This document shows positions 27,907 through 39,770 of a stretch of DNA of 53,438 bases, piece by piece; positions within the stretch are counted from its first letter, which is position 1; each line of letters starts with the position of its first letter. Under the pieces are notes generated by a model, which saw nothing but the letters and a program-made list of their open reading frames with translations, searched no databases and was not told the origin of the DNA. Source of the DNA: Candidatus Manganitrophaceae bacterium (GTDB lineage Bacteria; Nitrospirota; Nitrospiria; SBBL01; Manganitrophaceae); contig JACQEZ010000017.1 of NCBI GenBank assembly GCA_016200325.1, positions 1 through 53,438 on the forward strand. Direction: 5' to 3'. Both the position numbers and the translations under genes were made by a program.

Positions 27907-30900
27907 CTACGGCAGCTGATAGGTCACGGTGAGCGAAGGACGGATTGCGGCGGTCGGGTTCTCCATGCTGGCGAAGAAGCGGTAGCGGTCGGCTTCTTTG
28001 GTCGCGTCGGAATTCAGCATCAGACCAAAGTTGGTCGTCGGCGCGTTGATCCACTCCTGCACCATCGCCGTGAGGGTCCAGTTCTTCCGCCCGAGCACCT
28101 TATCGATCGCCTTGGTGTCATAGGGGGCGGAGATATCCTGCTCCGCGAGCGGAACATTGTCGTAACAGCAGGCGTTCGCCGTCCAGCCGTTCACCCCGTC
28201 ATAGGTATAGCCGGTCGCTCTCGTCAGATCGGGATTCTTGTTGATCACCTTGTGGACCGTGACGGTGTAGGTCGGTTCCGCCTCAATATCGGCTTCGACC
28301 AGGGAGAGGTTAAGTGTCGCGCTCTGAATGACGGCGCCCGCCGGGATGCTGCTTAGGTTGAATTTCATCAACACCGTATTCGCCGCTTGATTATCGGGCC
28401 AGGTATAGGTATTCAATGTCACATCGGTGCTGTTGACCGAGGTGTCGAGATTGAGGTAGGTGTCGGCCGCCGGGGAGAGCGTCACTGTCGTCGGGGTCGA
28501 GACCGGCGGCGCGGCGGTCACAAAGATCGCGTCGGCGGAGGTCGCAACGTTTCCGGCGGGATCTTTACTCCGGACCCGATAATGATAGAGGGTGGAGGGA
28601 AGGAGTCCGGTCAGCGTCTGCGAATGGGCCGCGATCAGCTTTGAGACGACGGCGGTGGTCGTCCCATAAGAGGCCGTCGTTCCATAGTCAACCTGGCTGT
28701 CGGCGACTTCATTCGTCGTCCAGCTGATCACCACACTGGTCGACGTGATGCTCCCCGCCGCCACCGCCGAGATCACCGGCGGGGTGGTGTCGGGGGCGAG
28801 AAGGGTCCGGGCGCTGATCGCCGCGCTCTGCGCCGAGAGATTCCCCGCCGCATCGGACGCCGCCACCGTATAGCTATACGCCGTATTGGCGGTCAAGCCG
28901 CCGTCGGAGTAGGTCAGGCCGCTCGGAGTGGCCACCTGCGTCCCATTGCGATAAACCCGATAGCCGGTCACTCCGATGTTGTCGGTCGAAGCGCTCCAGC
29001 TCAGATTGATCTGGGTCGAAGAAGGGACCGTGGCGGCCAGCCCGGCCGGCACCGACGGCGCCGTCGTGTCGGGGATGGCGGTCGTGATAAAGATGGCGTC
29101 GGAGGAGGTCGCCACATTCCCGGCGGCATCCCGGCTGATCACTTGATAATGATAGGTTGTCGAAGCGGTTAACCCGGTGAGGGAAACGGTATGGGCGGAG
29201 ACCAGGGCCGTATTTAATGTGGAGAAGCTCCCATACGCCGTCGTCGTTCCATACGCCACCTGAGTGGTCGCCGGCTCATTGGTCGTCCAGCCGACGGTCG
29301 CTCCGGTCTGCGTCACCCCCGACGCGCCGATCCCGGAAAAGACCGGCGGGGCGGTGTCGGGCGGAAGGAGGGTCCGGGCGCTGATCGCGGCGCTCTGCGC
29401 CGAGAGATTCCCCGCCGCATCGGACGCGGCCACCGTGTAGCTATAAGCGGTATCGGGGGTCAAGCTGCCGTCGGAGTAGGTCAGGCCGGTTGGGGTGGCG
29501 ATCTGGGTTCCGTTGCGATAGAGCCGGTAGCCGGTGACCCCGACATTGTCGGTCGAAGCGCTCCAACTTAGATTGATCTGGGTGGAAGAAGGCACCGTGG
29601 CCGCCAGCCCGGTCGGCGCCGACGGCGCCGACGTGTCGGGCGGGGTCACCGTGGTAAAGATCCCATCGGTTGAGACCGCCAGATTTCCGGCGGCGTCCTT
29701 GCTTCGGACGCGGTAATGATAAAGGGTGGAAGAAGCCAATCCGGTCAAGCTCTGCGAGTGGGCGGTCACCATCGTCGAGACAAGCGGGCTGGTCAGGCCA
29801 TAAGAGGTCGTCGCTCCATATTCCACTTGGGTATCGGAGAGCTCATCCGTGCTCCACCCGATGACAGCGCTGCTGGCGGTGACACTCCCCGTCCCCATTC
29901 CGGAAAGAACCGGTGCCGTCGTGTCGGCGGCCGACGGCGGGGCGGCGGCGGTGTTGGGGGTGAAGCGGAAACCGCTGTTGGCGGAGACCGTCGGAATCGA
30001 TATTCCGACGCTGCCGTCCTGGTTCTCGATCCCGATCCCGGTCGGGGCATTCATCGTCACCGCTCCATATTGGAAAAGGATCGTCCCATCCGGCCTCAAG
30101 ACCACTTCAAAGGTATGGGTCGGCGCGCTGCAGCAGAGGTCTCTCACGCCGTTAAAGGCGATCACGAACTCCGTATCTGAAGAGGCGAAGGTGATCTGCT
30201 GCATCCCGACATAAAGATCCCGCCAAAAAGGGGCGATGAAAGCGTTCGGCTGAGCGGGTCCCGGAATCGACTGCGGGATAAAAGCGGTATTCGCCCCTCC
30301 GAAGGTGATCAACCCGTTGGTCGAGAGATACAACTGTTTATAGGTCTGTCCATAGAAGGGGAAGGGAAAGGGGAGAAAGGCGGTGGTCGAATTGTCATCC
30401 CCGGCGAGCGTTAAGGCGATCGGCGCCGCCACCCAGGCGTATGGATCTTGTGTCAGGGTGTAGCTGCTGATCGATGGGGGAGGCCCTTGGACAGGAGGAG
30501 GCGCCACCGTCGGCGGGGCGAGCGTTAGGAAATAGGCATCCGGTCCATAGGTCGTTCCCCCCGCGTTGCGGGCGGCCAGTCGGAAATGATAGGTCGTCGA
30601 AGCGGTCAGCGAGGCGAGGGTGGCCGAGATCGTATTGGTCGCCGAGACGGTGGCCACAGGGGTGCTGCTGCCGTAAGCGGTCGTGGTGCCATACTCGAAC
30701 CAGGCGGTTGTGGTCGCTCCCGAAGGATTGACCGTGCCGGAGAGGGTCGCGCCGGAGGAGGTCATACCGGTCGCCGCCGTCTGAGAGAGGACCGGCGCCA
30801 GCGGCAGGGTGGTATAGGCGCGCGCAGAAGAAGCCGCCGAGAGATTCCCCGCCGCATCATAGGCCGCCACCGTATAGCTATAGGTCGTGTTAGCGGTCAG

Positions 30901-31671
30901 ACCGCCGTCGAGATAGCCTGGGGTCGCGCTGCTGGCCACCTGGGTTCCATTGCGATAGATACGATAGCCGGTCACCCCCAGGTTGTCGGTGGAGGCCGAC
31001 CAGGTGAGATTGATCTGTGTGGCGGAGAGAACAGTCCCGGTCACCCCTGCCGGTGTGGAGGGAGCGGTGCCGTCGCCGAGGGTGGTGAAGGTGCCGTCTT
31101 GAGAGGTGGCCAGATTCCCCGCCGCATCGCGGCTGAGGGCGCTGAAGTGATAGAGGGTTCCCGGCTGCAGACCGGTGAGCGTTTGGGTGTGAGCCGTTAC
31201 GAGGTCCGGCGTCCCCGGCGTTGAAGCGCCATAGGAAGCGGTCGCCCCATAGACGACGCGGCTGCTCGATACCTCATTGCTGCTCCAGCTGATCGTCGCG
31301 GAATTCAGTGTCAGGCTGCCGACCGTGATGCTCGAGAGAATGGGAGGGGTCAGGTCGATCGCCAGGGGGATCGCTTTGCTGACCTCGTTGGAGGAGGGGC
31401 TTTCATTTCCGGCGCCGTCATAGGCGGTGACGGCAAAGTAGTAGGTCAATCCGTCGATGAGATTGGGGACCGTATAGGTCGTCCCCGTTCCGACATCGAC
31501 GGCGGTCAAATAGATACCGGAAACCGTCCCGGTATAAACCTTATAGCCGCTGACCGCGTCGGGGCTCGGGTCCCACGTCAGGACCGCCTGACCCGCCCAC
31601 GCGACCCCACCCTGATTGAGCCAGAGTGAAAGAAAAAGAACGATCACCCACCGAGCACTGACTCTCCTCAT
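27907..31671 (-). CDS. Large exported fibronectin-III protein with nidogen-like insert and C-terminal DNRLRE domain
   Basis: 1254 residues with an N-terminal signal peptide (VSARWVIVLFLSLWLNQGG, then WAG). An Fn3 domain (VLTWDPSPDAVSGYKVY) is followed by an A-type Fn3 (TINE-like TISWSSNEVSSSRVVYG), a B-type Fn3 (INLTWSASTDNLGVTGYRIY) and a titin-like one (GTVNPSGATTTAWFEYG). Next comes a nidogen-like domain (FPFPFYGQTYKQLYLSTNGL), then A-B-A-B-A Fn3 modules and a C-terminal DNRLRE domain (DTYLNLDTSVNSTDVTLNTY). It is probably cell-surface or extracellular, with adhesive or matrix functions; no sortase or PEP-CTERM signal is visible. GGAGAT precedes the ATG. It is expressed through the GEMM-I riboswitch at 31889-32001. 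Confidence 0.9.
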   Translation of the reverse strand: MRRVSARWVIVLFLSLWLNQGGVAWAGQAVLTWDPSPDAVSGYKVYTGTVSGIYLTAVDVGTGTTYTVPNLIDGLTYYFAVTAYDGAGNESPSSNEVSKAIPLAIDLTPPILSSITVGSLTLNSATISWSSNEVSSSRVVYGATASYGASTPGTPDLVTAHTQTLTGLQPGTLYHFSALSRDAAGNLATSQDGTFTTLGDGTAPSTPAGVTGTVLSATQINLTWSASTDNLGVTGYRIYRNGTQVASSATPGYLDGGLTANTTYSYTVAAYDAAGNLSAASSARAYTTLPLAPVLSQTAATGMTSSGATLSGTVNPSGATTTAWFEYGTTTAYGSSTPVATVSATNTISATLASLTASTTYHFRLAARNAGGTTYGPDAYFLTLAPPTVAPPPVQGPPPSISSYTLTQDPYAWVAAPIALTLAGDDNSTTAFLPFPFPFYGQTYKQLYLSTNGLITFGGANTAFIPQSIPGPAQPNAFIAPFWRDLYVGMQQITFASSDTEFVIAFNGVRDLCCSAPTHTFEVVLRPDGTILFQYGAVTMNAPTGIGIENQDGSVGISIPTVSANSGFRFTPNTAAAPPSAADTTAPVLSGMGTGSVTASSAVIGWSTDELSDTQVEYGATTSYGLTSPLVSTMVTAHSQSLTGLASSTLYHYRVRSKDAAGNLAVSTDGIFTTVTPPDTSAPSAPTGLAATVPSSTQINLSWSASTDNVGVTGYRLYRNGTQIATPTGLTYSDGSLTPDTAYSYTVAASDAAGNLSAQSAAISARTLLPPDTAPPVFSGIGASGVTQTGATVGWTTNEPATTQVAYGTTTAYGSFSTLNTALVSAHTVSLTGLTASTTYHYQVISRDAAGNVATSSDAIFITTAIPDTTAPSVPAGLAATVPSSTQINLSWSASTDNIGVTGYRVYRNGTQVATPSGLTYSDGGLTANTAYSYTVAASDAAGNLSAQSAAISARTLLAPDTTPPVISAVAAGSITSTSVVISWTTNEVADSQVDYGTTASYGTTTAVVSKLIAAHSQTLTGLLPSTLYHYRVRSKDPAGNVATSADAIFVTAAPPVSTPTTVTLSPAADTYLNLDTSVNSTDVTLNTYTWPDNQAANTVLMKFNLSSIPAGAVIQSATLNLSLVEADIEAEPTYTVTVHKVINKNPDLTRATGYTYDGVNGWTANACCYDNVPLAEQDISAPYDTKAIDKVLGRKNWTLTAMVQEWINAPTTNFGLMLNSDATKEADRYRFFASMENPTAAIRPSLTVTYQLP

Positions 31672-31888
31672 CGCATCTCCGTATCGTCCACAATGCCCGT
31701 CCTGAGCTCAGAAACCGCCTCCCTCCCTGTAGCGGCTTGCGGGCGTTGTCGATGCGCGTCGCTGGTCCTTTCGACGGGCCGACCGCTTACGCTTCTTGTC
31801 TCTTTTATTCGCTGACTAAAATACGAGCATTCAGATTCTATGAAAGATCGATTTCAATGCCAGTGCTGCATGAAGAATATGGCTGTAA

Positions 31889-32001
31889 CAAAAAACGAGC
31901 CGCCAACGAATTTCCTTTGGCGGCTCGGCGGGCATGGCCGATCGGCTTTAGCCCCGTTGCTCTGCGCCCCCATCTTTCGATGAGTTTGCTCTGATCAAAG
32001 G
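31889..32001 (-). promoter_or_regulatory. GEMM-I riboswitch with A20 (cGAMP-type prediction), unit 1
   Basis: On the minus strand the P1 strand CCTTTG is followed by CAGAGCAAACTCATCGAAAG (P2 with GAAA tetraloop), GGGGGCGCAGAG and GGGGCTAAAGCC (P3). Aligned to Vc2, the position of G20 is A, A47 is kept in GCGCA, and C92 is kept in GCCGCC. The P1 3' strand CAAAGG is inside the terminator hairpin 31897-31926 (GAGCCGCCAA..TTGGCGGCTC), which is followed by a U-run. Ligand binding should prevent termination. About 215 bases of untranslated RNA separate it from the Fn3 gene; nothing further is seen there. Confidence 0.9.
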
Positions 32002-33235: not shown

Positions 33236-36200
33236 TCAGCGCCCTCCCCATCGGCTTCTGTCCGTGGTCGCCGAACGGCTGGCGCTCTGGTTCGAGACAT
33301 TCCCCGCCGCATCATACGCGGAGACCGTGTAACGGTACGTTGTATTCTCGGAAAGCCCGGTATTCGAATAGCTCGTCGAGGTCGTCGTGGCAATCTGCGC
33401 TCCGTTTCGGTAAATTCGATAGCCGGCCACTTTCACGTTGTCGGTTGAGGCGCTCCAACTCAGGTTGATCTGGCTGGAGGAGACCGCCGACGCGCTCAAG
33501 CCATTCGGCACCGACGGCGCGGTGGTGTCGGGCGGCATTGCGGTCGTGAAGGTCCCGTCGCCGGAGATCGTCAGATTCCCCGCCGCATCTCTGCTCCGCA
33601 CCCGATAGTGATAGAGGGTGGAGGGATTCAGCCCGCTCACACTCTGAGCATGCGATGTGACCAGGGTCGAGACGACGGCGGTGAAAGAGCCATAGGTCGT
33701 TGTCGTCCCATACTCGATCTGTGTGTCGGCCGGCTCGTTCGTGCTCCAACCGATGACGGCACTGTTGACCGTGACGCTCCCCGCCCCCATTCCGGAGATC
33801 ACCGGCGGGGTCGTGTCGGGCGGCGCGGCGGTCGTGAAGCTGTTGTCGCCCGAGGTCGCCAGATTGCCGGCCGCATCCCGGCTGAGCAGCCGATAGTGAT
33901 AGGTCGTCGAAGGGCTCAGGCCGGTGAGCGCCACGCTGTGAGAGGCCGCCAAGGTCGTATTCAGCGTCGAGAGGGTGCCATAGGCGGTCGTCGTCCCATA
34001 TTCCACCTGGGTCGTCGCCGGCTCGTTTGTCGTCCAACCGACGGTCGCGCCGCCGGGGGTCACCCCGCTGATGCCGATTCCGGAGAGGGTCGGCGCGGTC
34101 GTATCGGGGGGCGGCAAGGTCTTCGCACTGACCGCCTGGGTTTGCGCGGAGGCGTTCCCGGCCGCGTCGTAGGCCGAGACAGTATAACTGTAAGTGGTCG
34201 CGGCAGTAAGACCGGAATCCACGTAGCTCGGTAATGCGGCCGTTCCGACCTGTGTTCCGTTGCGGTAGACCCGGTAGCCGGTCACCTTCACATTATCGGT
34301 TGAGGCGCTCCAGGCCAAATTGATCTGACCGGCCGACGCCGCCGTTGCGCTCAGCCCGGCCGGGACCGACGGTGCCGCCGTATCGGGGGGGGTCGCGGTG
34401 GTGAAGGTGGCATCGCTCGAAACGGCCAGATTCCCCGCCGCATCTTTGCTCTTGACCCGATAGTGATAGAGGGTCGCGGAGAGAAGGCCGGTTAAGCTTT
34501 GGGAGTGTGCGGTGACCCGATTGGAAACGATCGGTGTGGCGCTGCCATAAGCGGTCGTCGTCCCATATTCCACCTGCGTGTCGGACGACTCGTTGGTGGT
34601 CCAGCTGAGGGTCGCCCCGCCGGGGGTGATGTTCCCTGCCGCGATGCCGGAGATGACCGGCGCGGTCGTATCAGGCGGGAGGGCGGTGGTGAAGGTATTG
34701 TCCCCCGAGGTTGCGATGTTCCCCGCCCCATCTCGGCTGATCACCCGGTAGTGGTACACCGTCGAAGCGCTCAAGCCGGTCAGGGCGACACTATGGGAGG
34801 TTGCGAGGGTACTGTTGAGGGTGGAGAGGAGCCCATACGTGGCGGTGGCGCCATATTCCACCTGGGTCGTCGCCGGTTCATTGGTGGTCCAACCGACGGT
34901 CGCTCCCCCCGAGGTGATCCCCGTAGTGCCGATTCCGGAGAGAACCGGCGCGGTCGTGTCGGGCGCCGCCGACGTCTTCACACTGACCGCCGACGTCTGC
35001 GCCGAGGCATTCCCCGCGGCATCATACGCCGAAATCGTATAGCTGTAGGTCGTCGACGCAACCAAACCGCTGTCGGCGTAACTTGCGGTCGCGGTCGTTC
35101 CCACCTGCGTGCCATTCCGATAAACGCGATAGCCGGCCACTTTTACATTGTCGGTCGAAACAGTCCAGGTGAGATTGATCTGAGTCGAAGAGGCCGCGGC
35201 CGCCTGAAGGCCGGCGGGCACCGCAGGCGGGGTCGTGTCGGCGGGGGTGGCGGTGGTGAAGGTCGCATCGGCCGAGACCGCCAGGTTACCGGCGGCATCT
35301 TTGCTCTTGACCCGGTAGTGATAGAGGGTGGCCGAGAGAAGGCCGGTGAGGCTCTGCGAATGGGCGGTGACCTTTGTCGGGAGAACGACGGTCGTTGTCC
35401 CGTAAGCGAGGGTCGTTCCATATTCGACCTGCGTGTCGGCCGCTTCACTGCTGGTCCAAGTGATCGTCGCTCCGCCGGTCGTGATGCTCCCGGCGGCGAT
35501 CGCCGAGAGGGCCGGCGCGGCGGTATCGGGCGCCGCGAGGGTGGCGGCGCTGACCGCCGCCGTCTGCGCCGAGACGTTTCCGGCCGCATCATAGGCGGAG
35601 AGGCTGTAGTTGTACGTCGTGGAAGATGCGAGGCCGGTGTCCAAGTAGCTCGTCGTTGCAGACGTCCCCACTTGGGCACCATTTCTGTAGATCCGATATC
35701 CGATTGCTTTTACATTGTCGGTCGAGGCGGTCCAGGTCAGATTGACCTGACTTGACGAAACCGTGCTGGCCTTCAGGCCCGTCGGCATCGCCGGTGCGGT
35801 GGTATCTGGAGCGGCTGGAGTCGTGAAGGAATTATCGAGAGACGTAGCCAGATTGCCGGCCGCATCTCGGCTGAGGACCCGATAATGGTAAAGGGTAGTC
35901 GGCTGGAGTCCAGTGAGCGCTTGACTATGGACCGTGACCAGGGCTGAGATCAAAGTGGTTGATGATCCATAAGAGGTCGTCGTTCCATACTGTACCTGGG
36001 TGTTGGCTCCTTCGTTCGTCCCCCAGGTGATGGTTGCAACAGCACTGGTAATGCTGCTCGCATTAATGCTCGAAATGAGCGGCGCTGTAATATCGGGGGA
36101 GGGGGCTTTAGAGACTTCTGCAGAAAAGGCGCTCTCGTGACCACCGGTATCGTAAGAGGTTACAGCGAAAAAGTGGATTTGGTTGGGAAGATTCGTCAGA

Positions 36201-36409
36201 ACATAAGAAATCTGCTTTCCAACATCAATCGGGGTATTATATTTCCGTGAAGTGGTTCCATAATAGATTTTGTATCCTGCTAAAATCGTGTCTGTGTTCG
36301 CACTCCATGTCAGTGTGGCATCCATTGCCGATGCGATTCCATTCATTGGAATCAGTAACACCATAAAAATAAAAAGGATGAATCCACACTTTCCGAGGGT
36401 ATTGTGCAC
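33236..36409 (-). CDS. Large exported fibronectin-III repeat protein
   Basis: 1057 residues from GTG 36409, chosen because GAAGGAGAT lies just upstream and a signal peptide follows at once (CGFILFIFMVLLIPMNGIAS, then AMDATLTW). After an N-terminal Fn3 the modules alternate between an A type (TTNEPATTQVEYGTT; six copies) and a B type (LSWSASTDNVKVAGYRIYRN; four copies) in the order A-B-A-B-A-A-B-A-A-B. It lacks the DNRLRE domain of its paralogues and ends in a short basic tail (DRSRWGGR). Near-identical modules suggest recent expansion by recombination. It is probably extracellular or surface-bound. Two riboswitches in tandem precede it. Confidence 0.9.
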   Translation of the reverse strand: MHNTLGKCGFILFIFMVLLIPMNGIASAMDATLTWSANTDTILAGYKIYYGTTSRKYNTPIDVGKQISYVLTNLPNQIHFFAVTSYDTGGHESAFSAEVSKAPSPDITAPLISSINASSITSAVATITWGTNEGANTQVQYGTTTSYGSSTTLISALVTVHSQALTGLQPTTLYHYRVLSRDAAGNLATSLDNSFTTPAAPDTTAPAMPTGLKASTVSSSQVNLTWTASTDNVKAIGYRIYRNGAQVGTSATTSYLDTGLASSTTYNYSLSAYDAAGNVSAQTAAVSAATLAAPDTAAPALSAIAAGSITTGGATITWTSSEAADTQVEYGTTLAYGTTTVVLPTKVTAHSQSLTGLLSATLYHYRVKSKDAAGNLAVSADATFTTATPADTTPPAVPAGLQAAAASSTQINLTWTVSTDNVKVAGYRVYRNGTQVGTTATASYADSGLVASTTYSYTISAYDAAGNASAQTSAVSVKTSAAPDTTAPVLSGIGTTGITSGGATVGWTTNEPATTQVEYGATATYGLLSTLNSTLATSHSVALTGLSASTVYHYRVISRDGAGNIATSGDNTFTTALPPDTTAPVISGIAAGNITPGGATLSWTTNESSDTQVEYGTTTAYGSATPIVSNRVTAHSQSLTGLLSATLYHYRVKSKDAAGNLAVSSDATFTTATPPDTAAPSVPAGLSATAASAGQINLAWSASTDNVKVTGYRVYRNGTQVGTAALPSYVDSGLTAATTYSYTVSAYDAAGNASAQTQAVSAKTLPPPDTTAPTLSGIGISGVTPGGATVGWTTNEPATTQVEYGTTTAYGTLSTLNTTLAASHSVALTGLSPSTTYHYRLLSRDAAGNLATSGDNSFTTAAPPDTTPPVISGMGAGSVTVNSAVIGWSTNEPADTQIEYGTTTTYGSFTAVVSTLVTSHAQSVSGLNPSTLYHYRVRSRDAAGNLTISGDGTFTTAMPPDTTAPSVPNGLSASAVSSSQINLSWSASTDNVKVAGYRIYRNGAQIATTTSTSYSNTGLSENTTYRYTVSAYDAAGNVSNQSASRSATTDRSRWGGR

Positions 36410-36429: not shown

Positions 36430-36543
36430 CAAAAAAAGCCGCCAAATGGAATATCCTTTGGCGGCTCGGCGGGCATGGCCGATCGGCTTTAGCCCCGTTG
36501 CTCTGCGTCCCCACCTTTCGATGAGTTTGCTCTGAAGCAAAGG
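36430..36543 (-). promoter_or_regulatory. GEMM-I riboswitch with A20, unit 2a (gene-proximal of a tandem pair)
   Basis: Minus strand: P1 CCTTTG, CAGAGCAAACTCATCGAAAG, GGGGACGCAGAGC, GGGGCTAAAGCCGATCGGCC, then ATGCCCGCCGAGCCGCC. A replaces G20; A47 and C92 equivalents are kept. The P1 3' strand is CAAAGG, a perfect match to CCTTTG, and it forms the terminator hairpin 36437-36466 with TTTGGCGGCT before a run of seven U. The Fn3 GTG start lies about 20 bases after the terminator. Confidence 0.9.
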
Positions 36544-36602
36544 TCAAATAAATAAATTGTTGCTCTTGAATACCTCCGGAGCCTGCGAAAAGATGAAGAG
36601 AT

Positions 36603-36714
36603 AAAAAAAGGCCGCCGAAGTATCCCTTCGGCGGCCCGGCGGGCATAGCCTCTTCGGCTTTAGCCCCGTGACTCTGCGTCCCCACCTTTCAGCGGGTTTG
36701 CTCTGAAGCAAAGG
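36603..36714 (-). promoter_or_regulatory. GEMM-I riboswitch with A20, unit 2b (promoter-proximal of a tandem pair)
   Basis: Same layout: P1 CCTTTG, CAGAGCAAACCCGCTGAAAG, GGGGACGCAGAG, GGGGCTAAAGCCGAAGAGGC. The P1 3' strand is CGAAGG, pairing with one G-U. It lies in the terminator hairpin 36609-36636 (GGCCGCCGAAG..CTTCGGCGGCC), followed by seven U. A20, A47 and C92 equivalents are as in the other units. It has its own terminator, so it is a complete switch and not just an extra aptamer. Confidence 0.9.
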
Positions 36715-36983: not shown

Positions 36984-39368
36984 TTACGGCAGCAGATAAT
37001 AGATCCGAAGGGAGGGACGAAGGGAGGCGTTCGGATTTTCCATGCTGGCAAAGTAGCGATAGCGGTCGCTCCCCTTCGTCGCGTCCGAATTGAGCAGCAA
37101 TCCATAATTGGTTGCAGGGCTGCTCATCCAATTTTGGATGATCGCCGTGACATTCCAGCTCTTCCTTCCAAGCACTTTATCGATCGCCTTGGTGTCATAG
37201 GCGGCCGAGATGTCGCCCTGCGCCAAAGGAATATTATCGGCACAGCAGTTATTGGCGGTCCAGCTGTTGATGCCGTCATAGGTATAGCCGGTCGCTTGGG
37301 TCAGATCGGGATTCTTGTTGATCAGCTTGTGCACGGACACCATGTAGGTCGGCTCCGCCTCCGTATCCGCTTCCACTAAGGAAAGATAGAGCGTGGCACT
37401 CTGGATAATGGCGCCGGGCGGAAGGCTCTTCAAGTCGAACTTCATCAAGGCGACATTCGCAATCTGATTGTCCGGCCAGGTATAGGTATTCAATGTCGCA
37501 TCGGTGTTGTTCACCGAGCTGTCGACATTCAGATAACTATCCATTGTCGGCGTCAGCGTCAATCGAATGGCCGAGCTGGAGGCCGACGTCGTGGCACTCA
37601 CGGCCGCCGTCTGCGGCGAGGCGTTCCCCGCCGCATCGTAAGCCGACAGGGTATAGTTATACGTCGTGCTCGCACTCAACCCGGTGTCGGCGTAATTTAA
37701 TGAGGTCGTCGTTCCCACCTGAGCGCCGTTTCGGTAGATTCGGTAACCGGCGACAGCCACATTGTCTGTGGAGGCCTTCCACACCAGATTGACGAGGCTT
37801 TGCGAAGCCGCCGTGGCGGTCAGACCGGTCGGCACCGACGGCGACGAGAGATCGGGCAGAAGGGTCGTGGTGAAGGTCGCATCACCGGAGGCGGCGGTGT
37901 TTCCCGACGCATCCCGACTGAGGACCCGGTAGTGGTAGGTGGTCAGCGGATTCAGACCGGCGAGAAGAACGCTGTGAGCGTTCAGGAGGGTGACATCGAG
38001 AAGCGAGCGGGAACCGTATGCGGTCGTCGTCCCATACTCCACCTGCGAGGTGGCCGGTTCATTGCTCGTCCAGCGGATCGTCGCGGCCAGGCCCCCGATG
38101 CCGCCGGCGGCCATTCCCGAGAGGACCGGCGGGGTTGTATCGGCGGCGGTATAGATGATGGTGAGCGAAGGACGGAGGGAGGCATTCGGGTTTTCCATGC
38201 TGCCGAAGAAACGGTAGCGATCGGCTCCTTTGGTCGTGTCGGAGTTCAGCAGCAACCCATAATTGGTCGCAGGCCCGGCGATCCACTCCTTGACCATCTG
38301 TGTCATATCCCAGCGCTTCACGCCGAGCGTTTTGTCGATCGCCTTCGTGTCATAAGCCGCCGAGATGTCGGCCTGCGCCAGAGGAACACTGTTGGCGCAG
38401 CAATCATTGGCCGTCCAGCTGTTGATCCCATCATAGCTGTATCCGGTCGCTTGGGTCAGATCGGGATTCTTGTTGATCAGCTTGTGCACCGTCACCGTGT
38501 AGGTCGGCTCCGCCTCCGTATCCGCTTCCACCAAGGAAAGGTTCAGCGTGGCGCTCTGGATGACGGCGCCGGCCGGAAGGGCGCTTAAACTGAATTCCAT
38601 TAAGATGGCATTGGCCGCCTGGTTTGCAGGCCAAGTATAAGTATTTAGCGTCACATCGGCGTTGTTGACCGACGTATCTACATTCAAATAGGTGTCGGTC
38701 ATCGGCGACAAGGTCACCGTGCCCGAAGAAGGGGAAGGGGTCACGACCGGCGGGGGCGGGAGGATCACAATGGCCGCGGTGGTAAATGTGTTATCGAGGG
38801 AGGTGGCGAGGTTGCCGGCCGCATCGCGGCTCAGCACCCGATAGTGGTAGAGGGTGCTCGGCTGCAGGCCGCTGAGGCTCTGGCTGTGCACCGTCACCTT
38901 CGCCGTCGCCAATGTTGTCGATGATCCGTAAGTGGTCGTCGTCCCATACTGCACCTGGGTGTCGGCCCCTTCATCCGTCCCCCAGGTAATCGTCGCCGCC
39001 GCGGTGGTGATGCCGCTCACGTTAATGCTGGAGATCAGCGGCGCCGCCGTATCGGGCGGCGGGGTCTTGGAGGCCTCATCGGCGTAAGCGCTCTCGTTTC
39101 CTGACCCATCATAGGCCGTCACGGTGAAGTAGTGCGTCTGATCAGGAAGATTGGTGAGGGAGTAAGACGTCTGCTTGCCGACATCCATCGCAGCCAGATA
39201 AATTCCTGAGGCGGTCCCGTAATAAACTTTATAGCCGGCCACTCTTGAATCGGTATTCGCGTCCCAGGTCAGCGTGGCATTCATTGCCGACGCGGTTGCA
39301 TTGAAAACAATCAAGGAAAAAAGAGAAATGAATAGAACGAAGCCCCGCTTCCCTATGATCTCGCGCAC
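36984..39368 (-). CDS. Exported fibronectin-III protein with two DNRLRE domains
   Basis: 794 residues from GTG 39368, with AAGGAGG four bases upstream. It has a signal peptide (KRGFVLFISLFSLIVFNATA, then SAM), an N-terminal Fn3 (ATLTWDANTDSRVAGYKVYY) and an A-type Fn3. The first DNRLRE domain begins DTYLNVDTSVNNADVTLNTY. Then come an A-type and a B-type Fn3, and a second DNRLRE domain (DSYLNVDSSVNNTDATLNTY) ends the protein with the aromatic/Cys-rich SWTANNCCADNIP segment typical of these domains. The two DNRLRE copies are strongly similar to each other and to that of the 27907-31671 protein. It is probably a surface or matrix protein, expressed through two riboswitches in series. Confidence 0.9.
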   Translation of the reverse strand: MREIIGKRGFVLFISLFSLIVFNATASAMNATLTWDANTDSRVAGYKVYYGTASGIYLAAMDVGKQTSYSLTNLPDQTHYFTVTAYDGSGNESAYADEASKTPPPDTAAPLISSINVSGITTAAATITWGTDEGADTQVQYGTTTTYGSSTTLATAKVTVHSQSLSGLQPSTLYHYRVLSRDAAGNLATSLDNTFTTAAIVILPPPPVVTPSPSSGTVTLSPMTDTYLNVDTSVNNADVTLNTYTWPANQAANAILMEFSLSALPAGAVIQSATLNLSLVEADTEAEPTYTVTVHKLINKNPDLTQATGYSYDGINSWTANDCCANSVPLAQADISAAYDTKAIDKTLGVKRWDMTQMVKEWIAGPATNYGLLLNSDTTKGADRYRFFGSMENPNASLRPSLTIIYTAADTTPPVLSGMAAGGIGGLAATIRWTSNEPATSQVEYGTTTAYGSRSLLDVTLLNAHSVLLAGLNPLTTYHYRVLSRDASGNTAASGDATFTTTLLPDLSSPSVPTGLTATAASQSLVNLVWKASTDNVAVAGYRIYRNGAQVGTTTSLNYADTGLSASTTYNYTLSAYDAAGNASPQTAAVSATTSASSSAIRLTLTPTMDSYLNVDSSVNNTDATLNTYTWPDNQIANVALMKFDLKSLPPGAIIQSATLYLSLVEADTEAEPTYMVSVHKLINKNPDLTQATGYTYDGINSWTANNCCADNIPLAQGDISAAYDTKAIDKVLGRKSWNVTAIIQNWMSSPATNYGLLLNSDATKGSDRYRYFASMENPNASLRPSLRIYYLLP

Positions 39369-39388: not shown

Positions 39389-39589
39389 AAAAAAAGGCCG
39401 CCAAAGAAATTTCCTTCGGCGGCTCGGCGGGCATGGCGTCTATCAGAGGCGGGGCCCGTCCGGTCCGCTTTCCAGCGAATCCTCCGATGCCCCACACCCA
39501 CGCTCCGACCGGCAAACCGGATCGGAGCGTCGCTTTAGCCCCGTGACTCTGCGTCCCCACCTTTCGATGGGTATGCTCTGAAACAAAGG
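39389..39589 (-). promoter_or_regulatory. GEMM-I riboswitch with A20 and an enlarged P3 arm, unit 3a
   Basis: Minus strand: P1 CCTTTG, CAGAGCATACCCATCGAAAG, GGGGACGCAGAG, GGGGCTAAAGC. Then about 95 extra bases (39437-39531) before GCCATGCCCGCCGAGCCGCC. The insertion holds a strong hairpin at 39500-39530 (ACGCTCCGA..TCGGAGCGT). P1 closes with CGAAGG, which is also in the terminator hairpin 39397-39423, followed by seven U. A20, A47 and C92 equivalents are conserved. The coding start lies about 20 bases after the U-run. Confidence 0.88.
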
Positions 39590-39657
39590 ACGGAATAAAA
39601 ATAAAGATGAAGCCTGTCTTGTCCCGGAGGGGCCTGAACCGCTCCGATGTCGCGCAC

Positions 39658-39770
39658 AAAAAAAGGCCGCCGAAGGAATCCCTTCGGCGGCCCGGCGGGC
39701 ATGGCCTTTTCGGCTTTAGCCCCATGACTCTGCGTCCCCACCTTTCGATGGGTATGCTCTGAAACAAAGG
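39658..39770 (-). promoter_or_regulatory. GEMM-I riboswitch with A20, unit 3b (promoter-proximal)
   Basis: Minus strand: P1 CCTTTG, CAGAGCATACCCATCGAAAG, GGGGACGCAGAG, GGGGCTAAAGCCGAAAAGGC. The P1 3' strand CGAAGG is in the terminator hairpin 39665-39692 (GGCCGCCGAAGG..CCTTCGGCGGCC), followed by seven U. The ligand-contact positions match those in the other four units. It is complete, with its own terminator. Confidence 0.9.

Follow-up and report, generated by a model that had tools for sequence, protein, structure and literature searches.

What does a bacterium gain by placing two complete riboswitch-terminator units of the same specificity in series upstream of a gene? The question is raised by positions 36430-36714, and again by positions 39389-39770, of contig JACQEZ010000017.1 of a Candidatus Manganitrophaceae bacterium; the whole 53,438-nucleotide stretch that was analysed, hereafter the window, corresponds to contig 17 in a genome of 4.2 Mb. 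A preliminary description of this DNA had proposed that the paired units form a possible AND gate with a steeper and lower-background response than the single unit at 31889, arisen by recent duplication or selection. We consider it very probable that the pairs are homotypic tandems: in each, two transcriptional ON riboswitches of the 3',3'-cGAMP-responsive type (GEMM-Ib) would act independently of one another in front of a gene for an exported fibronectin-III protein. The features concerned are as follows:

27907..31671, minus strand: exported fibronectin-III repeat protein gene 3' of the isolated unit (PF00041, 3e-47)
31690..31800, minus strand: possible decayed proximal aptamer of the locus with the "single" unit (z 4.2-5.9 in local alignments with the proximal units of relatives)
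31890..32001, minus strand: isolated GEMM-Ib (A20) unit with terminator (RF01051, 64.5 bits; stem 31896-31927, -20.2 kcal/mol)
33236..36409, minus strand: exported fibronectin-III repeat protein gene behind the first pair (PF00041, 3e-55)
36431..36467, minus strand: terminator of the proximal unit, first pair (stem -20.8 kcal/mol)
36457..36543, minus strand: proximal GEMM-Ib (A20) aptamer, first pair (RF01051, 63.4 bits; A20; P1 5' strand 36538-36543)
36603..36637, minus strand: terminator of the distal unit, first pair (12-13 bp stem, U7; -24.9 kcal/mol; terminator scan match)
36627..36714, minus strand: distal GEMM-Ib (A20) aptamer, first pair (RF01051, 64.3 bits; A20; P1 5' strand 36709-36714)
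36984..39368, minus strand: exported fibronectin-III repeat protein gene behind the second pair (PF00041, 2e-18)
39389..39423, minus strand: terminator of the proximal unit, second pair (stem -19.4 kcal/mol; terminator scan match)
39418..39589, minus strand: proximal GEMM-Ib (A20) aptamer, second pair, with interrupted P3 loop (RF01051, 45.3 bits at 39508-39587; 3' end by pattern)
39438..39531, minus strand: extra P3-loop sequence in the second pair's proximal aptamer (pattern)
39658..39693, minus strand: terminator of the distal unit, second pair (stem -27.3 kcal/mol; terminator scan match)
39683..39770, minus strand: distal GEMM-Ib (A20) aptamer, second pair (RF01051, 60.5 bits)

An Rfam cmscan of the window returned five c-di-GMP-I (GEMM-I; RF01051) aptamers, all on the minus strand, four of them scoring 60-65 bits (E ~1e-9 to 1e-10) and the fifth 45 bits (1e-5). 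All five lie above the gathering score of 35 and belong to this family, and the matches comprise a lone unit at 31916-32000 and a pair at each of two places (36457-36541 with 36627-36712, and 39508-39587 with 39683-39768). The low score of the fifth aptamer, the 39508-39587 match, reflects a partial alignment due to about 90-94 extra nucleotides in its P3 loop; by pattern, its true 3' end lies at ~39418. Each of the five units is followed by a GC-rich hairpin and U-run of its own, with stems of -19 to -27 kcal/mol. The two full aptamer-terminator modules in series that had been described at each pair are thus borne out, coordinates included, by Rfam, the stems and the terminator scan. Immediately downstream of each pair is a gene for an exported fibronectin-III protein, and no open reading frame lies between the aptamers of a pair; in the first pair, the U-run of the proximal terminator ends ~21 nt upstream of a GTG start at 36409, which is inferred from sequence together with the Shine-Dalgarno site GGAAGGAG.

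Which ligand would these units sense? Alignment to the Vc2 aptamer places an A at the position of Vc2 G20 in all five window units (motif CAGAGCAWAC), which agrees with the A20 specificity assigned before; the position numbers are those of the Vc2 structure. According to PMC9481103, the specificity nucleotide at position 20 contacts the ligand, and the A20 aptamer of Desulfobacca acetoxidans gained affinity for cGAMP, with c-di-GMP binding perhaps only slightly weakened. An A at this position is the hallmark of c-AMP-GMP (3',3'-cGAMP) variants; it predicts, without being proof, that the window units probably prefer 3',3'-cGAMP. A serine in place of the aspartate of the GHxxGD motif marks Hypr cyclases (PMC6456294), and by this criterion two of the 27 GGDEF loci with a readable motif (30 loci in the genome) carry the Hypr serine (GHxxGS). 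One of these two proteins, apparently GAF-GGDEF when its domains are named by eye, has as its best PDB match, by a wide margin, 6D9M, which is described as a diguanylate cyclase (Geobacter-type) with response-receiver and GAF parts, joined to lysozyme. We take 6D9M to be the Hypr domain of Geobacter metallireducens GacA. Its description is in keeping with the G. metallireducens GacA construct of PMC6456294, which was fused to T4 lysozyme. The A20 units and the Hypr-serine GGDEF proteins, one of them nearest to Geobacter GacA, together make cGAMP signalling plausible in this organism.

In each unit, one strand serves two helices, as the 3' side of P1 and in the 5' arm of the terminator (in the distal unit of the first pair, 36625-36630 within 36603..36637), so P1 and terminator are mutually exclusive. 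In the absence of ligand, GCCGCC(A/G)AAGG would become the 5' arm of an intrinsic terminator in each unit; with ligand bound, CCUUUG upstream of the aptamer would hold CAAAGG or CGAAGG in P1 and block the terminator. The ligand would stabilise P1 during transcription and let the polymerase pass, which would make each unit an ON switch. Across 18 units of the genus, P1 pairs are formed in 100% of cells, three of the six pairs varying on one side, and the terminator stem is paired in 94.9%, one of its pairs having changed on both sides from A-U to G-C; two mutually exclusive helices are thus both kept. The covariation of P1 and terminator is weak because the genus units are so similar in sequence. 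In minimum-energy folds, the terminator state is favoured by 13-23 kcal/mol in every unit, a computed bias that would be expected of a ligand-dependent kinetic switch but would also suit an inactive, always-terminating unit. A sigma-70 scan found no internal promoter inside either pair, which is weak evidence given nine matches in the region versus 3.3 expected; one weak match (9-of-12) lies just downstream of the second pair, at 39384-39355.

If the two units of a pair act independently, as we infer, RNA polymerase would pass two decision points, and read-through would approximate the product of two probabilities. We modelled the read-through of each unit as b + (m-b)L/(L+K) and multiplied two units. 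With a leak of 0.1 and a maximum of 0.8, the modelled pair lowers basal read-through from 0.10 to 0.01 and raises fold induction from 8 to 64, with an effective Hill coefficient of 1.12; the ceiling of 1.19 belongs to identical ideal independent units and falls with realistic leak. The series arrangement would square the basal leak, lower the maximum slightly, raise the half-maximal ligand concentration about two-fold and increase steepness modestly. In the model the gain from a tandem is mainly low background and little steepness, in agreement with the triple tandem of Bacillus thuringiensis (PMC4759541). The lower background anticipated in the preliminary description is therefore expected, whereas the anticipated gain in steepness is small.

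But does such a pair amount to an AND gate? The idea is supported in part, in that two independent aptamer-terminator ON units with the same predicted ligand stand in series, but a single ligand does not make a two-input gate. Within each pair the two units do not differ at the specificity nucleotide, so we rejected the label of a two-input Boolean AND gate for the window pairs. A glycine-type cooperative tandem, with a single platform after the second aptamer, does not apply either, since a terminator lies between the aptamers. Two same-class aptamers before one open reading frame, each with its terminator, make up the arrangement for which the published term is pseudo-cooperative (PMC9481103). 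That two different ligands should nevertheless be required at these pairs is very improbable: G20 units followed by A20 units do appear elsewhere in this genome (contigs C16 and C20), but A occupies the specificity position in all window units, which predicts the same ligand.

The genomes of relatives show how old the tandem is. They have in common with this genome the gene order ABC-transporter ATPase gene, fibronectin-III gene A, DUF72, fibronectin-III gene(s) B and NifU-like gene. Upstream of gene B, beside the NifU-like gene, two A20 units stand in series in this genome and in all four genus relatives with a readable locus (G001, G002, G004 and G005); upstream of gene A, the locus of the window's "single" unit, two units are present in G002, G003, G004 and G005. 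Some of these units were missed by Rfam owing to P3 inserts and were recovered by pattern. The relatives' units form a clade for each of the four positions (ultrafast bootstrap 88-100), with three exceptions placed outside (G1_B_prox, G2_A_dist and G3_A_dist). This grouping by position, into proximal and distal clades, implies that the doubling predates these species. A recent duplication, as had been suggested for the tandem itself, is therefore rejected: the same doublet sits at syntenic loci in relatives, and its proximal and distal units fall mostly in separate clades. What does look recent is the extra fibronectin-III gene with its own pair that this genome has relative to the others, together with homogenisation within this genome. 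The distal unit of the extra pair resembles its distal counterpart next door (89% identity) more than its own partner (80%), so the extra pair and a gene were probably copied jointly, and the clustering of three of the four paired units of this genome (support 95) suggests homogenisation. Beyond the genus, no RF01051 match was found in eight further loci from the NifU-like search (mostly labelled Nitrospirota or Troglogloeales); homotypic A20 series occur elsewhere in the class, with three units in G019 (L108) and two in G038 (L109).

The history of locus A also bears on the single unit as a comparator. It has one clear unit, and no second conventional aptamer was found there by Rfam at E up to 10. 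As a comparator it is weak, however, as relatives are paired at this locus and the leader downstream of the isolated unit has, at 31690..31800, a weak similarity to their proximal units (z against shuffles); the window's "single" may thus be a decayed pair. In the relatives, the proximal aptamers of locus A are without a GC-rich terminator and lie near the Shine-Dalgarno site (L074 7122-7196, L075 7694-7768, L076 11746-11820 and L077 2410-2484). They may act on translation, which would make a two-mechanism tandem.

Could the two units of a pair do different things, or could one of them do nothing? We think it unlikely, if still worth weighing, that the units differ in affinity or in a residual response to c-di-GMP, so that the pair widens the range or mixes signals and does not sharpen the response. 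The stably different, separate clades of the relatives' proximal and distal units would suit such a division, as would the identity of just 80% between the units at 36430-36714, and in the series model a ten-fold gap in Kd lowers the effective Hill coefficient to ~0.9-1.1, so that an unequal pair can be shallower than one unit. However, the binding-core specificity nucleotides A20 and A47 are identical in both units of a pair, and within-pair differences lie mainly in P2, the P3 tips and the terminator loops. Less probable still is that each pair has one functional unit, unequal crossing-over having left the second as a relic that still terminates or constitutively reads through. The units are alike enough to recombine (92% identity at 39389-39770), the proximal unit of the second pair carries a large P3 insert, and at locus A the terminator-poor proximal units of relatives and the possible decayed second unit of this genome point the same way. 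Yet the four paired units all exceed the Rfam gathering threshold, each has a full terminator, and the locus B doublet persists across species at 76-77% protein identity of the neighbouring gene, which would be unlikely for a relic. Two independent ON units remain our preferred reading of both pairs, with activity less certain for the second pair on sequence grounds: both its units have a U for one A of GCAAAC, and its proximal unit also has the 94-nt P3 extension.

The insert at 39438-39531 has an 85% identical copy in an A20 unit on contig C20 (L080 7234-7398) and less similar copies (79-82%) on contig 3 (L128), where they are not part of riboswitches; a similar-looking sequence occurs in G003 (L123). 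G005 has four near-full-length copies of an insert of its own, unrelated to the one here (121-128 nt, 91-100% identical), each in the P3 loop of a different A20 aptamer (L076 6461-6639, L076 11467-11652, L118 1200-1382 and L127 near 3571), and the rest of the G005 genome has no more than partial and weaker matches; the P2 stems around these copies mostly differ. Such inserts could come from local gene conversion or from a mobile element tolerated at the loop. Two further riboswitch-type matches were seen. A divergent GEMM-I match of 43-47 bits, conserved in the genus and upstream of a terminator, has AAGAGCTACCC in place of GGCAAAC (L084 6593-6679; L113, L116 and L120) and is possibly another variant specificity. 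A 103-bit Rfam match to 5_ureB_sRNA (L083 10476-10774) may only mirror similarity in urease coding sequence.

What about true two-signal control? In two of the four tandem pairs of this genome, a G20 unit with its terminator is followed by an A20 unit (L079 4893-5144 and L080 7234-7568, on contigs C16 and C20), both times upstream of fibronectin-III genes. Such mixed tandems also occur in the relatives G003 (L123 1017-1354), G004 (L115 776-1082) and G005 (L118 1034-1382), and in another family in G019 (L107 465-814). Each G20 and A20 unit has a terminator of its own, and the arrangement is conserved in four genus genomes. The G20 units presumably sense c-di-GMP; some of those in relatives score as the Rfam variant c-di-GMP-I-GGC, which leaves their ligand not certain. 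When the transcript is folded only as far as the terminator loop, the terminator 5' arm pairs with the aptamer's own strand (GGGC/GCCC in the genus, GGGUUGC/GCAACCC in G019), and the G20 unit is therefore predicted to be an OFF switch. These folds suggest OFF polarity, less strongly in the genus, where only a short pairing competes and, except at C20, termination persists in the full-length fold. That the mixed tandems of the genus are true two-signal gates, with the output "cGAMP and not c-di-GMP" if the G20 unit is OFF, is a tentative reading to which we give somewhat less than even chances. If true, a mixed tandem would allow two cyclic-dinucleotide programmes to be kept apart within a single transcript. 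Among the logic gates tabulated in PMC9481103 there is no c-di-GMP/c-AMP-GMP pair. As a separate observation, in the G20-unit terminator on C20 (L080 7471-7568 and the following bases) the 3' bases that would pair with GGGC at the foot of the stem are gone, and the hairpin that is left is weak, unlike those of the relatives.

The pairs extend tandem cGAMP riboswitches to Candidatus Manganitrophus, a Nitrospirota genus known for manganese oxidation, and the retention of the doublet over species divergence argues for selection for low leak of surface-protein genes. With natural single, homotypic-tandem and mixed-tandem versions before related genes, this genome is a convenient set for measuring what a tandem gains.

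Finally, we would like to place the window pairs among known tandem riboswitches. That tandem GEMM arrangements were already known, as the preliminary description noted, is correct: in the survey of PMC9481103, c-di-GMP-I doublets are the most numerous tandems (347 doublets and 12 triplets) and are termed pseudo-cooperative. The window pairs share with them two complete same-class units with an intrinsic terminator each; the survey text pools c-di-GMP-I as one class, whereas the window units are both of the A20 variant. The D. acetoxidans clusters in the same paper (c-di-GMP/c-AMP-GMP with AdoCbl) likewise have A/G-variant GEMM-I units in one neighbourhood and in tandem with other switches, but there the partner is an AdoCbl riboswitch and no second cyclic-dinucleotide switch. 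The triple-tandem c-di-GMP-I riboswitch of B. thuringiensis (Bc3-5) also consists of complete ON units in series, and in reporters background fell and fold change rose as units were added (PMC4759541); it differs in having three units, c-di-GMP as ligand and a Gram-positive host. In Geobacter sulfurreducens, a tandem GEMM-Ib lies upstream of GSU2885/omcAHG, where RNA-seq shows ligand-dependent read-through, and on deletion of gacA the RNA is lost by the second riboswitch (PMC6456294). The likeness lies in two GEMM-Ib units in series before one gene and in a Hypr GGDEF protein as ligand source, whereas the phylum is another, the genes here encode exported fibronectin-III proteins in place of cytochromes, and a 94-nt P3 insert is present here. 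The window pairs are an already described leak-lowering design and no new logic gate.
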